Assembly (NCBI RefSeq): GCF_007860175.1
Contig: NZ_SJPX01000003.1
Span: 142,552-206,551 of the forward strand
From: Rubripirellula reticaptiva
GTDB lineage: Bacteria > Planctomycetota > Planctomycetia > Pirellulales > Pirellulaceae
Reading direction: 5' to 3'
Length of the DNA: 64,000 nucleotides
In this document: piece after piece, positions 45,782 through 62,797 of the stretch
How the letters are laid out: each line of letters starts with the position of its first letter
How positions within the stretch are numbered: the first letter of the stretch is position 1
Notes under the pieces: generated by a model
The model's database searches: none
Told to the model about the DNA's origin: nothing
Seen by the model: only the letters and a program-made list of their open reading frames with translations
Made by a program: the position numbers and the translations under genes

Positions 45782-45807
45782 TTTGTAAGGTTTATTTGTA
45801 AGGTTTA
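45782..45807 (+). repeat. Two tandem copies of a 13-bp element upstream of the MerR-like gene
   Basis: TTTGTAAGGTTTA occurs twice in immediate succession (45782-45794, 45795-45807), 13 bp before the MerR-like start codon. Thirteen bp is not an exact number of turns of B-DNA. Direct repeats are the usual targets of excisionase-like winged-helix proteins, so the repeat may be an operator for the product; it also covers the ribosome-binding region. Confidence 0.7.
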
Positions 45808-46138: not shown

Positions 46139-48634
46139 GTGAGCGAATTCTTCCCTAAATTCTTTGACACGTCCGATTTCCCGGCGCGTTGGTACTGCGG
46201 CAATTGGTCGGAATTCCTTGGATGGCTACATATTGTCAGTGACGTTGCCACGTTTGCGGCCTACTTCGCGATCCCAGCGGTACTGATCTACTTCGTACGC
46301 AAGCGAGATGACTTTCCGTTTCACAAACTGTTTTGGTTGTTCGGCGGATTCATCCTTGCGTGTGGCACCGTCCACCTGATCGAAGCGATCATCTTTTGGC
46401 ATCCGATCTATCGTGTCTCCGCAATGATGAAGGTCATCACTGCGATGATCTCGTGGGCGACGGTGATTGCTTTGGTCCGTTACATGCCTCGCATTTTGCA
46501 GTTGCCTTCGATAGCGGCAACCAACGAGCGGCTAAAAACTGAGATAAGTCAGCGCCAGCAAACTGAGCGAGAGTTGCGCGAAGCGAAAGAACGCCACGAC
46601 GCAATTTTGGCGGGCACAAGTAGTATCGTTTGGACGACCGATCGAAGAGGCCAGTTCGCTAAGCCACAGATTTCCTGGGAACGATATACAGGACAAAACT
46701 GGGACGAACACAAGGGATTAGGTTGGGCCGAGGCGATTCACGAGGATGACCTGCCGGAGCTCAAACGTCGGTGGCAAATATCGCTTTCAAATGGCACCAA
46801 GCATCAGGCGACGGGGCGAATTTGGCATCAGGAAAGCCAGGCCTACCGTGCATTCATCGCCGAAGCCGTGCCGGTGAAAAATGATGACGGCACCATGCGT
46901 GAATGGGTCGGCACTATCACGGATATCGAGGAACAGGAGCAGGCCCAAGCCGCACTGGGGCTTGCCAAAACTGATCTGGTGAAGCAAAAACGTGAATTGG
47001 AATTGATTTACGAAGCAACTCCAGTCGGACTTTCGTTGATTGATCGCAATTACCGGTTCCTGCGAGTCAACGAAACACTCGCGTCGATCAACGGATACTC
47101 AGTTGAGCAACACATTGGTGCGCGATCGGATGAGATGCTGCCGGAATTACACGAGCAGCTCTATCCGATCTACGACCAAATTTTTGCGACTAGCAAGCCG
47201 ATTCTAAACGTAGAGATTGTCGGAAAGACGCCGGCAAGTGACCAGGAGAAGACTTGGCTGGCAAGCTACTTTCCGCTGGAATTGCCCTCGGATGACGGAA
47301 CCGCTCATTCGGTGACTGCCGTCAGCGCGATTGTGCAAGACATTACTGATCGGAAAGAGACCGAGCGTCGTTTGCAACAGAGTGAAGCCGCCGCGCTGGC
47401 GGCGAGCCGGTCCAAAAGCGAGTTCTTGGCGAACATGTCCCACGAGATTCGGACCCCAATGGCAGCCATCCTTGGTTACGCCGACGTGCTGCTGGGTCAC
47501 CTGAAAGACCCTGACAATCGCAATTGTGTTTTGATTATGAAACGCAACGGGGAACATCTGCTGGAACTTATCAACGATATTCTTGACCTGTCGCGGATCG
47601 AAGCGGGAAAGCTGGATGTCGAGCCGGAAGCGTGTCCGTTGCCGCAGTTGGTCGCTGATATTCAGTCGTTGATGCAAGTTCGTGCGGGCGAAAAGAAAGT
47701 CAAGTTTGAGGTCGAGTTTGAGGGCCAAGTGCCTGGCGAGATTTTGACCGACGCCACCCGCCTTCGGCAGGTACTCATTAACCTGATCGGTAACGCAATT
47801 AAGTTCACTGACGAAGGTGAAGTGACTCTGAAGGTGAAGTTTGTCGCGGAGGCGAATCCGCCATTGGTCGAATTTGCGATCGTGGATACCGGCATCGGCA
47901 TCAGTCCCGAGCAACAAGAACGTTTGTTCAAACCATTCTCTCAGGGCGACTCGTCTGTGACTCGGCAGTATGGCGGCAGCGGCTTGGGATTGGCGATCAG
48001 TCAAAGGCTGGTCCAAATGCTCGACGGGACAATGGAGCTGGAAAGTGAACCAGGCGAGGGATCCACGTTCTTTGTACGCTTACCGGTGGACTCGATTGAC
48101 GAAATTGAGCTGGTGAGGCCTGATCTGGTGATCCGCAGAAGCGAACCCGAGGAGTTGCTTTCTGAATCACCGAAACTCGATTGTCGCGTTTTAGTCGTCG
48201 ACGACCGCCGCGATGTGCGGCACATCAGTCAACACTTTCTTGAGAAGGCTGGAGCGAGAGTGGCGACTGCCGAAGATGGTCAGCAAGGGATCGACGAGGC
48301 GATCGCGGCACGTGATGCGGGGCAACCATTTGATTTGATCGTGATGGACATGCAGATGCCAAATGTGGACGGTTTACAAGCGACCGCGCGGCTCCGGTCA
48401 GCGGGAATCGAGTTGCCGATCGTCGCATTGACTGCCGATGCGATGAAGGGTGATCGCGATAAATGTCTCAATGGCGGCTGCGATGACTATTTGTCGAAGC
48501 CGATTGACCACGCGAAGCTGGTGAACATGGTTGCGAAGTACACGCAACAGGTGACAGCTGAAGAATTGGTTCACCGCCGTCGTGACCGTGCTGAGCAACT
48601 CCGAAAGCAAATGGGAGATAGCAATGATGCCTGA
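46139..48634 (+). CDS. Hybrid sensor histidine kinase with ETR1-type ethylene-binding domain
   Basis: 831 residues, GTG start. Residues 26-118 contain three membrane helices matching the plant/cyanobacterial ethylene-receptor sensor: the residues known to form the ligand/Cu(I) site in ETR1 (D25, Y32, I35, P36, I62, C65, H69) are all present at a constant offset of +10 (D35, Y42, I45, P46, I72, C75, H79). Then a coiled-coil linker, PAS 1 (about 153-270), PAS 2 (about 285-405), HisKA with FLANMSHEIRTPMAAILGY (H435), HATPase_c with N552, DTGIGIS and SGLGLAI, and a REC domain with D737 (IVMDMQMP). No HPt or output domain, so phosphate should pass on in trans. Confidence 0.9.
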   Translation: MSEFFPKFFDTSDFPARWYCGNWSEFLGWLHIVSDVATFAAYFAIPAVLIYFVRKRDDFPFHKLFWLFGGFILACGTVHLIEAIIFWHPIYRVSAMMKVITAMISWATVIALVRYMPRILQLPSIAATNERLKTEISQRQQTERELREAKERHDAILAGTSSIVWTTDRRGQFAKPQISWERYTGQNWDEHKGLGWAEAIHEDDLPELKRRWQISLSNGTKHQATGRIWHQESQAYRAFIAEAVPVKNDDGTMREWVGTITDIEEQEQAQAALGLAKTDLVKQKRELELIYEATPVGLSLIDRNYRFLRVNETLASINGYSVEQHIGARSDEMLPELHEQLYPIYDQIFATSKPILNVEIVGKTPASDQEKTWLASYFPLELPSDDGTAHSVTAVSAIVQDITDRKETERRLQQSEAAALAASRSKSEFLANMSHEIRTPMAAILGYADVLLGHLKDPDNRNCVLIMKRNGEHLLELINDILDLSRIEAGKLDVEPEACPLPQLVADIQSLMQVRAGEKKVKFEVEFEGQVPGEILTDATRLRQVLINLIGNAIKFTDEGEVTLKVKFVAEANPPLVEFAIVDTGIGISPEQQERLFKPFSQGDSSVTRQYGGSGLGLAISQRLVQMLDGTMELESEPGEGSTFFVRLPVDSIDEIELVRPDLVIRRSEPEELLSESPKLDCRVLVVDDRRDVRHISQHFLEKAGARVATAEDGQQGIDEAIAARDAGQPFDLIVMDMQMPNVDGLQATARLRSAGIELPIVALTADAMKGDRDKCLNGGCDDYLSKPIDHAKLVNMVAKYTQQVTAEELVHRRRDRAEQLRKQMGDSNDA

Positions 48635-53802: not shown

Positions 53803-55064
53803 CAGGGCGATTGCGCCACGATTGGTATTTTGCGAAACCTGGTGAGACATCGCTTTGGGATTGAGTGTTCGATGAGCGACCGGGTGATGCATCTTGCCCT
53901 GGAGTCATCGCCTTGGAACGTTCCGCCAGTCTCACCGAGCATCTTAGCAATGTCACGGACCCGCGCACCGGGAAGATCACTTACCCACTGACCAATATTC
54001 TCTTCATGACTATTTGTGCGGTAGTCGCTGGTGCCGATGACTTCGTCGCCATTGCTCACTTTTGCTCACTTTGTCAACACGAAGAAAGATTGGTTCGCGA
54101 AATCCTTGGATATGAGTTCGGGTGTCCCATCGCATGATCGATTCAACTCGATCCTTAAACACATCAAGCCTGACGAATTGGAGCGATGCTTGTTAGCTTG
54201 GCTGACAAAGCTGCATGAGATCACCGACGGGCAAGTCATCGCAATCAACGGGAAGACACTGCGTCGAAGCTACGATCACAAAGACGGTAAGGCAGCCATT
54301 CACATGGTCAGTGCATGGGCCACTGAGAATCACATTAGTTTGGGGCAAACCGTGGTTGATGCGAAGAGCAATAAGATCACGGCCATTCCGAAACTGCTGC
54401 AAATGATTGAAGTTTCCGGAGCTTTGATCACGATCGACGCGATGGGATGTCAGACCGAAATTGCCGATCGGATCATCACCGAGAAAGCCAATTACTGTTT
54501 GACCATCAAAGGCAATCAGCCAACCTTGAACAAGGGACTCAAAGCGTTCTCCTTGAAGCACCTGGAAAACGACTTTGCCGATGTTGAAGTGCGTGAGTTT
54601 CAAAGTAACGAGAAGGGGCACGGACGAGAAGATTTTCGTTCGTACTACCTTTGCAAAGTGCCCTCAGAGTTGCGCGATGCAGCGCGTTGGCGTGGACTCA
54701 AAGCGATCGGGATTTCGATAAATAATACAACTCGCCGAAGTGGTGATCGCATCGACGTCCGCTACTACATTTTGAGCAAATATGTCTCGGGCAAACGGTT
54801 CGCCTCAGCGGTTCGTGACCACTGGGGCATCGAAAACAGTCTTCACTGGAAGTTGGATATAACGTTCGGCGAAGACCAAAGCCGAATCCGAAAAGGTCAC
54901 GCTAACGAGAACTTCAATACGCTTCGCAGGACAGCCCTGAGTCTGCTCAAGCAAGAGAAAACGGCCAAGTGCGGAGTGAAGAACCAACGACTGAAATCTG
55001 GCTGGGACTGCGACTACTTAGCAAAAGTCGTGTTCGCAGCATGACTTGCGGTGCAATCGCCCTG
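53803..55064 (+). mobile_element. ISAs1-family insertion sequence, inactivated
   Basis: 1262 bp. Left end CAGGGCGATTGCGCCACG (53803-53820), right end the inverse of CAGGGCGATTGCACCGCAAG (55045-55064): the first 12 bases are a perfect match, then the ends diverge. The internal gene codes for an ISAs1/H-repeat-type DDE transposase. No flanking target duplication of 8-10 bp is apparent (GTTCGACC on the left, GCTCATCG on the right), which fits an old or rearranged insertion. Confidence 0.85.
53865..55044 (+). pseudogene. ISAs1-family transposase, frameshifted
   Basis: Two overlapping frames together make a full-length transposase. The first reads SLTEHLSNVTDPRTGKITYP, LTNILFMTICAVVAGADDFV; the second runs from about 54062 with NTKKDWFAKSLDMSSGVPSH through VIAINGKTLRRSYDH, ISLGQTVVDAKSNKITAIPK and ALITIDAMGCQTEIADRII to the stop at 55044. 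The break is a 10-bp tandem duplication, TTGCTCACTT (54052-54061 and 54062-54071); removing one copy restores IAHFVNTKK. The usual IDGK has become INGK and the usual KSNEI has become KSNKI, at the positions of catalytic or invariant residues. Confidence 0.85.
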
Positions 55065-56397: not shown

Positions 56398-56565
56398 TCA
56401 GGCAACGGGCCCGCGGCGACCCATCACCAATCCGATGATGAACAGCACCAGGAACACAACGAACAGAATCTTCGCGATCGACGCGGCGGTTCCGGCAACG
56501 ACGCCGAAGCCTAGCACACCAGCGATCAGTGCGATAATCAAAAATGTAATGGCCCAGCCCAACAT
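56398..56565 (-). CDS. DUF1328 small membrane protein (YtjA-like)
   Basis: 55 residues, easily missed by length cut-offs. [20 protein letters not shown] then [20 protein letters not shown] and [15 protein letters not shown]: two membrane helices with the typical L-G-W-A start and G-T-A-A-x-I-A-K-I-L-F centre of the DUF1328 family. A GGAG precedes the ATG by 8 bases. Common among general-stress genes. Confidence 0.88.
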
Positions 56566-57859
56566 GGCTATCTCCAAACGTTACGTGGTTTTTCTCGCGG
56601 CGGCTAACAACACCACCCGGCGAACATAGTCTTGGAAGAGCGATTGGTGTGCCAAACACGTTACTGCTTAATTTTTCCGTGAAAACGACGACTCTAGCGG
56701 TCCGAACTGGACGACTGCGAGTCACTCTGATCGTGAAACGTGCATCGAGAGACAGAGAGGCCGGCCAAGCCTGCCGCTACGCCGCGATGCCCCTCCACTT
56801 TCTTCTCGATGAATGCCGAATCTCGGAAAGGGGTTTGCCTACTTTGATGCCGCATTCAAAGACATTGCGAATTATCCCTGAGCCATACGAGGCCGAACTC
56901 CTGGCCACCCCCAAAAATGGAACGACTTGACATCGGTGATATGTATCGCGGCCTCAAATGCGACGCGGCGATACATGCGAAAAAGGGATGCAACTACAAA
57001 GATTGCTGGACGAATTCCCAGTGCTGTGGTCAGCAGCTTGAGACCGCGACCGCATTGTCGATACAGAATCAGTGAGCGTCAAAATGAAATGAGTTGGCCG
57101 ACCGTTACCGAAACTGGAGAACCGATTTGAATTTAGATGCGTTTGACATATCGATAGACACCGACATTGGCCCGAAAAAACGGTGAATCAGGATCGTTTC
57201 CCCGTTGCAAACCTGCGGCGCAAATAGATCGCCGAGCAAACCGACGGGACTGAAACACACCACGCGGATTCCTTGGATTACAAGGAGGAGAGGCTATTTC
57301 TGAAACTCTCGCCCAGTGACTCGTAAGATTTCAAGGAAAAGCTTTCGGAATGCTTAAGCACGGCCAATGAAAAATTCCGCTCGATGTTCGACCCTCTATG
57401 TTCGACCAAAGGTATGGCAAATTCAGAGGATTGTCACGATCGCGTTCGTGCGATGGCCGCGTATGTTTGTCGCTTCTCGTTTTCAGTGATGGACAGACCG
57501 GGACAATCGACAAATCGGAACTTGCGGCAACGCTACCAACGCTGACTCCAGCGAGGCATCACTGTTAGATCTGGTCGACTCCGTGAACCGGGCACGCGAG
57601 AGAACAATATCCCTGCCGTCGTGTAGCGAATCGGACATCCAAAAACTTACGTTGAAGAAAGCTCACCGAGCTCGCCAACCACTACGATCGGTCGCTGTTC
57701 GTAGCGAAACTCGCCATCGGAATTGTTGGAAATTGCCGTAAGCCTAAAGGACTTTCGATACGTTAGATTCGGCGTGGTGATATGCTTTTTCAACCGTCAA
57801 TAGACGACGCAGAGGCCGAATCGAGATGACCCAAAAACAGCCAAATCCTTGACACTTCC
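56566..57859. other. Long gap without supported genes
   Basis: About 1.3 kb. Short frames on both strands (for example 56649-56930) show no domains. The receiver-domain relic just beyond suggests that this may be an eroded signalling gene region, but nothing in this stretch can be tied to a family. Confidence 0.35.
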
Positions 57860-62287: not shown

Positions 62288-62521
62288 AACTTTTGGCGAG
62301 TGTCGTTGCCGGCCATCTTGGTACGCTGATCGAAATCACACCGACCTGTTCGGCGATCTACCAAGTATCGCTTCATCAACCCTGAAAGCGAGTTGCCACG
62401 ATCGAGTATCGACTTTTGGCACGCAGGTTGCGTTATCAAAAGTCATCATCTTGGCGGTTGGAAACTAGACAGACCGATTCGGAGTTCGCCGCCTTACTCC
62501 GGACCCAACACAGGAAATCAC

Positions 62522-62797
62522 ATGTTCAAGATACTACTCAATAGCTCACTCGCTGCCGCACTCGCTTTCTGTGCGGTTGGTTGTGACGTCGAGCAGACTC
62601 GCGAAGGCGAAATGCCCAATGTTGACGTCGACGTCAATGGCGATCCAGGGCAATTGCCCGCGTACGACGTCGACGCACCCGAGGTAGATGTCGAGATGGA
62701 AGAAAGCACGGTCACGGTGCCGGATGTCGATGTCGACATGGAAAAGAGGACAATCAAAACTCCAGACGTGGACATTACACTTCCCAAGGATGAGTAA
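62522..62797 (+). CDS. Acidic lipoprotein with VDVD-type repeats
   Basis: 91 residues from the ATG at 62522. Signal peptide with lipobox (LAAALAFCAVGC), then a short acidic protein built of alternating Val/Asp units: PNVDVDVNGDPG, YDVDAPEVDVEMEE, VPDVDVDMEKR, TPDVDITLPKDE. Repeats of this kind form extended beta-strands or bind divalent cations; no family is named. Lipid attachment to the Cys is expected. Followed by a strong hairpin. Confidence 0.8.
   Translation: MFKILLNSSLAAALAFCAVGCDVEQTREGEMPNVDVDVNGDPGQLPAYDVDAPEVDVEMEESTVTVPDVDVDMEKRTIKTPDVDITLPKDE

Follow-up and report, generated by a model that had tools for sequence, protein, structure and literature searches.

We report that a hybrid histidine kinase encoded by the planctomycete Rubripirellula reticaptiva begins with a sensor whose membership in the ethylene-receptor family is supported, and that the predicted ETR1-type ethylene/copper site within it is strongly supported by this membership, by seven site residues together with K98 and by a confident three-helix model. 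Receptors of this type have already been proven in a soil bacterium and in a cyanobacterium, so that the kinase solidly adds a member to a known family. We give a probability of about 0.7 to the reading that the protein is a membrane ethylene-receptor sensor in which a Cu(I)/ethylene pocket would control the kinase and, through an HPt protein, a sigma-54 regulator; the copper, the ligand, the dimer and the use of that regulator are what we infer in this chain.

The sensor domain and the kinase

The coding frame of the kinase (Table 1) contains no internal stops, and comparison of its N-terminus with the ethylene-receptor sensor domains gave a match of the Pfam ETR1_N model (PF25487) to residues 27-122, with an E-value of 7e-38 and a score of 129 bits, the cut-off being 27. 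This is the only ETR1_N match in the genome of the window (the window being the whole stretch of 64,000 nucleotides analysed here), and none was obtained in 14 control genomes. The original prediction had listed D35, Y42, I45, P46, I72, C75 and H79 as the residues of the site, and all seven are found at those positions when counted from the GTG start, with K98 present beyond them. Its judgement that chance was unlikely to explain the pattern can be put more firmly, chance being excluded by homology. We take Y32, I35, P36 and I62 of ETR1 to be the counterparts of Y42, I45, P46 and I72. The ETR1 counterparts D25, C65, H69 and K91 are named in excerpts of PMC11819568, according to which ethylene binding in ETR1 needs seven residues.

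The fold agrees with this assignment. From an input of 68 sequences, taken solely from the window and related loci, AlphaFold2 returned a confident bundle of three long helices for the sensor domain (mean pLDDT 92; a monomer without metal), and a hydropathy peak above 1.4 falls in each of the three predicted helices. In an ideal helical-wheel projection, the four residues D35, Y42, I45 and P46 span 100 degrees of helix 1, and I72, C75 and H79 lie within 60 degrees of helix 2; the two faces are consistent with each other. Another three-helix sensor family was also considered and set aside, the fold search having given no PDB match at E <= 0.001. No solved structure of an ETR1_N-type domain was found in the PDB by sequence or fold search, which makes the bacterial versions useful structural targets.

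Behind the sensor, Pfam bears out the order that had been proposed, namely two PAS domains, HisKA, HATPase_c and a receiver. The protein thus keeps a histidine kinase output, in which H435 and D737 are the expected phospho-sites. Among the NCBIfam matches listed (25 of 156), no model reached its cut-off for the kinase. Four full-length relatives (L073, L074, L127 and L078) are 67-71% identical to it over about 830 aa.

Table 1. Positions in the window of the kinase gene, its domains and other features discussed in the text
Feature	Position	Strand	Basis
Two tandem copies of TTTGTAAGGTT(TA), 13-bp unit	45782..45807	+	TRF
MerR-type HTH protein, 71 aa	45821..46036	+	Pfam MerR, E 9.7e-13
Ethylene-receptor-type hybrid histidine kinase, 831 aa, GTG start	46139..48634	+	Translation, Pfam
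Predicted transmembrane helix 1, residues 25-55 (D35, Y42, I45, P46)	46211..46303	+	AlphaFold2
Predicted transmembrane helix 2, residues 62-84 (I72, C75, H79)	46322..46390	+	AlphaFold2
Predicted transmembrane helix 3, residues 91-120 (K98)	46409..46498	+	AlphaFold2
PAS domain 1, residues 179-260	46673..46918	+	Pfam PAS_3, E 1.8e-9
PAS domain 2, residues 292-407	47012..47359	+	Pfam PAS_4, E 1.1e-16
HisKA, residues 425-490, phospho-acceptor H435 in SHEIRTP	47411..47608	+	Pfam, E 3.8e-21; motif position
HATPase_c, residues 538-651	47750..48091	+	Pfam, E 2.1e-29
Receiver domain, residues 684-798, acceptor D737 in MDMQMP	48188..48532	+	Pfam, E 6e-27; motif position
ISAs1-family transposase	54031-55044		NCBIfam, E 2.8e-106
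DUF1328 small protein	56398-56577	-	Pfam, E 3.8e-16
Small lipoprotein-like protein with repeated VDVD motifs	62393-62797		No Pfam match

Comparison with known ethylene receptors

Arabidopsis ETR1 has identical site residues in a three-helix sensor followed by the kinase region, and it also has a receiver. Compared with it, the window kinase carries about ten extra N-terminal residues, and two PAS domains take the place of the GAF domain that separates sensor and kinase in ETR1 (PMC6586836, in part). No GAF or PHY domain was found by Pfam in the window protein, whose stretch from sensor to kinase holds PAS domains only.

In this line, AzoEtr1 of Azospirillum brasilense Sp7, whose gene we located in the Sp 7 plasmid record through its 525-aa length and an overlapping 135-aa regulator, has all eight site residues, K98 included, at numbers identical to those of the window kinase, and in both proteins C75 and H79 correspond to C65 and H69 of ETR1 (PMC11819568, in part). 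The window sensor domain is 47% identical to the Azospirillum matches over 117 aa. Saturable binding of 14C-ethylene by residues 1-130 of AzoEtr1 is reported in the excerpts of PMC11819568, together with D35A and C75A variants made by the authors as predicted non-binders and with a role in biofilms. The initial view of ethylene-type sensors as a matter of cyanobacteria and plants was too narrow, since AzoEtr1 belongs to an alphaproteobacterium and the domain is common in Planctomycetota. The architectures nevertheless differ: AzoEtr1, with 525 aa, has one PAS domain and lacks a receiver, the gene of a separate 135-aa regulator overlapping its stop codon, whereas the window kinase has two PAS domains and a receiver of its own. 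A further ethylene receptor kinase from a bacterium, SynEtr1 of Synechocystis, uses a phosphorelay for signalling (PMC11819568 and PMC6508509, in part), but it has a fused phytochrome-like domain (PMC6508509, in part), of which Pfam finds no equivalent in the window kinase.

Distribution and conservation of the domain

Searches with the family model found ETR1_N in 28 of 294 sampled Planctomycetota genomes and in 61 of the 241 genomes of the window's family, Pirellulaceae (60 of them above the cut-off). When GTDB genomes were scanned with sequence patterns, 391 relatives came out; among the best 80 of these 391 most titles are those of planctomycetes, and the remaining ones belong to Verrucomicrobia-type, Bacteroidota, Polyangia and Omnitrophota bacteria. 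Plasmid records add 18 relatives, including examples from Azospirillum, Novosphingobium and Acaryochloris.

The patterns of the GTDB scan contained D35, I72 and C75, which biases the resulting 81-row alignment for these residues, and conservation is more fairly read from 75 aligned rows found by the family model. They comprise 34 of 36 places of the Planctomycetota sample, 40 of 79 places of the window's family, hand-picked so that about half are high-scoring and half low-scoring, and the window itself. Both the cysteine and the histidine are kept in 67 of these rows and all seven residues in 47, the window being included in both counts, and the commonest site change is from I45 to V (12/75).

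The best viral match in the fold search with the sensor domain had an E-value of 2.1e-3, and for this reason ETR1_N proteins were also sought in phages. Four such proteins without a kinase were observed, at L230:3893-4762 (Maribacter phage Molly_1), L228:2695-3504, L229:2836-3285 and L232:3799-4176. Pfam E-values are 1.5e-16 for L230, 9e-30 for L228 and 9.5e-15 for L229, and the L232 protein was found by its 53% identity to that of L229. The cysteine and the histidine are kept in all four, and all eight residues in L228. The Molly_1 gene lies directly before an amidase gene and that of L229 is 1.8 kb from an N-acetylmuramidase endolysin; for the three phage proteins tested there was no PHROG match. 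A phage paper, PMC8776804, mentions membrane proteins near lysins, and its excerpts do not mention ethylene. These phage proteins could be holin-like or ligand-timed lysis proteins.

Genes upstream of the kinase

The gene order in the window is DUF2383 (-), MerR-like (+), kinase (+), dioxygenase/rhodanese (+), two YeeE-type genes (+) and a Csp-like gene (+). For comparison, we assembled 154 loci around ETR1_N genes, 143 after removal of duplicates, many of them cut by contig ends. The predicted MerR-like neighbour with tandem repeats was confirmed as a MerR-type HTH gene, 102 bp upstream of the kinase and preceded by the two-copy repeat, the second copy of TTTGTAAGGTT ending 15 nt before its start codon. 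A MerR-like gene directly upstream of the kinase occurs also in 2 of the 143 loci, those of Rhodopirellula rubra (L127) and of G461 (L223), a genome of the window's genus.

The 11-mer TTTGTAAGGTT has four copies in the 7.85-Mb window genome, two in the window, one on contig C5 and one on C6, the last preceding a MerR-like paralogue. In all four loci looked at, namely L127, L158, L223 and the window with its two copies, it is found 14-17 nt ahead of the start of the MerR-like gene, for which one of several candidate start codons was chosen in L127 and L223. As a genome-wide regulon motif it was rejected: four genome matches equal the reversed control count, with no overall enrichment, and because of this only its placement before the MerR-like start is notable.

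In R. rubra, the upstream block of cupin, AI-2E, DUF2383, MerR and kinase is collinear with that of the window, and the MgtC-like gene of the window was not found in this block. The kinase is followed there by a 2143-aa CheB/CheR/PAS hybrid kinase, and in G461 the MerR gene is followed by a 700-aa kinase and then directly by a 1752-aa CheB/CheR-type kinase. An island of stress genes (CsbD, DUF2383) was considered as a conserved context and rejected as a general link. DUF2383 is shared in order with R. rubra and occurs nearby in L121, and across the 28 Planctomycetota genomes with ETR1_N it has a match near the ETR1_N gene in the window only; in none of these 28 is CsbD near the ETR1_N gene, and 17 have a match somewhere.

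Two small genes of the window have relatives in other loci. Those of the DUF1328 protein lie within the stretches around ETR1_N genes in L046/L131, L082, L121, L144 and L080, and for the VDVD lipoprotein-like protein they are located close to the kinase in L073 and L074, with weaker ones in L055 and L103.

Candidate output and a possible link to light

Candidate partners come from related loci. In 4 of the 143 non-redundant loci, all from one genus, the kinase is followed after a gap of 91-104 bp by a 508-aa sigma-54 response regulator and an HPt gene: L073/L213 (Rhodopirellula sp. SM50), L074/L221 ('Planctomycetes bacterium TBK1r'), L220 and L222. In L073, Pfam recognises receiver, sigma-54 and Fis-type HTH domains in the regulator, and the HPt falls below the Pfam cut-off (21.2 vs 24.6 bits, E 3.6e-4). 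In 11/143 loci a regulator of this type, scoring above 300 bits, is found no more than 1.3 kb from the kinase, and in two loci it is farther away, a count without a control for ordinary pairing of kinases and regulators.

Neither a regulator nor an HPt adjoins the kinase in the window; both are unlinked in the window genome, which has sigma-54 and six places with this regulator type above 300 bits in its whole 7.85 Mb. The orthologue there, 81% identical over residues 5-506 (G000:C1:1604323-1605807), follows, at a distance of 1.6 kb, another hybrid kinase, a CheB/CheR protein of 1879 aa. For the HPt, the closest match (C6:490634) reaches no more than 37% identity; nine Hpt matches occur genome-wide. 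A broken second copy of the regulator was also observed (G000:C6:503780-504728, L158:13772-14735), 3.2 kb behind a pair of MerR-like and CheB/CheR kinase genes.

The MerR-like protein, the ETR1_N kinase, the CheB/CheR kinase, the sigma-54 regulator and the HPt recur in shuffled pairs across loci, from which we infer that the five may form a shared relay. Three close relatives (G494, G496 and G505) count against it, for in them the kinase is followed by a K+ channel gene and not by the regulator. Compared with known phosphorelays made of a hybrid kinase, an HPt and an NtrC-type regulator, four relatives encode the three parts in a row, whereas the window genome encodes them at unlinked places.

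A gene cluster was observed in R. baltica (L078:4167-13618), G505 (L208) and G496 (L216), comprising a bacteriophytochrome, a response regulator, a hybrid kinase, a heme oxygenase, the ethylene-receptor-type kinase and a K+ channel, with Pfam run on the R. baltica copies. The distance upstream of the kinase is, in all three, 3.5-4.1 kb for the bacteriophytochrome and 0.8-1.2 kb for the heme oxygenase. A phytochrome (Pfam PHY) is also found 4-5 kb from the kinase in L110 and L111, which makes 5/143 loci in all, a figure with no background rate behind it. SynEtr1 has its phytochrome-like domain fused, whereas R. baltica and its two relatives have a separate bacteriophytochrome gene, and this proximity is no more than suggestive of a light link for ETR1_N kinases.

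Proposed mechanism and alternative readings

According to the mechanism we propose, the three transmembrane helices would form a dimer in which C75 and H79 hold Cu(I) and D35 keeps H79 in position. Y42, I45, P46 and I72 would shape a pocket that binds ethylene or a closely similar small ligand of Cu(I). The signal would then pass via helix 3 and the two PAS domains to the kinase, which would first phosphorylate H435 and next D737 in its own receiver. The phosphate would most likely move on from D737 via a separate HPt to an NtrC-type sigma-54 response regulator that turns genes on, a role for which the window genome would use its unlinked, 81%-identical regulator.

The genes downstream of the kinase suggested a different context. 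The original prediction placed the kinase in a local regulon with persulfide/YeeE and copper genes, and its description of the neighbours is accurate: a metallo-beta-lactamase/rhodanese protein and two YeeE-type proteins are present, and the Cys-rich protein matches Csp3 in the PDB with an E-value of 2.5e-15. Moreover, the stop codon of the kinase and the start of the dioxygenase gene are 191 bp apart on the same strand, and no terminator-like site is listed in the gap. The linkage, however, is not kept, and the regulon was rejected over the 143 non-redundant loci and the 241 family genomes. A persulfide dioxygenase is found in only one of the 143 loci, 4.4 kb away and on the other strand, and YeeE and Csp in none. 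Likewise, 18 family genomes have both ETR1_N and a dioxygenase (E <= 1e-100), side by side in the window alone; in the other 17 they are unlinked, five times on one contig with 400 kb or more between them and 12 times on different contigs of their assemblies, the latter limiting this count. R. rubra retains the upstream block and the kinase with another gene downstream, and an ISAs1-family transposase lies 5.4 kb downstream of the window kinase, which would fit a recent rearrangement. Membership of the kinase in such a regulon is, with all this, highly improbable.

The same neighbours bear on the nature of the signal, as the domain may be intact and bind Cu(I), with a natural signal other than ethylene: the copper supply itself, CO, a sulfur compound or a further small molecule that Cu(I) binds. 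More than one small ligand can occupy Cu(I) sites, and the genes adjoining the kinase handle persulfide and copper. Yet these genes stand beside the kinase in the window genome only, among those compared, the seven ethylene residues of ETR1 are kept, and AzoEtr1 with an identical set binds ethylene (PMC11819568, in part), which leaves a non-ethylene signal rather unlikely. That the sensor domain is a relic or a scaffold while the PAS domains do the sensing would find a precedent in seven divergent ETR1_N proteins of about 1030-1100 aa from the window's family (L191-L194 and L196-L198), where the copper cysteine is replaced by S, G or A with the histidine kept, and which have probably lost copper/ethylene binding. 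A further row beside these seven, L207, aligns poorly and is without both ligands. In the 81-row alignment, on the contrary, all seven residues are kept by the window protein as well as by the four full-length proteins closely related to it, and we consider this possibility extremely improbable. The copper/ethylene sensor feeding a phosphorelay is the reading that we prefer.

Implications

The microbial receptors with measured ethylene binding are few, those of Synechocystis and of the fungus Rhizophagus irregularis being named, and that of Azospirillum added, in excerpts of PMC11819568. Searches of the openly accessible literature gave no paper on ethylene receptors in planctomycetes, and neither ligand nor copper measurements were found for a protein from a planctomycete. 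It is possible, although we hold it as a tentative idea that may well prove wrong, that planctomycetes of this group use ethylene as an environmental cue, with hybrid kinases feeding an HPt and a sigma-54 activator, and with the kinase paired with a bacteriophytochrome in the R. baltica relatives. Algae, or sunlight acting on dissolved organic matter, would be the sources of ethylene. If true, the result would be a bacterial relay laid out like the receptor-AHP-ARR chain of plants, and the integration of ethylene and light that takes place within one protein in Synechocystis would recur as two linked genes. The sigma-54 regulator, the HPt protein and the phytochrome are offered as testable partners. 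With the ETR1_N domain in about one in ten sampled Planctomycetota genomes, a planctomycete receptor with all the site residues would widen ethylene signalling to further bacteria.
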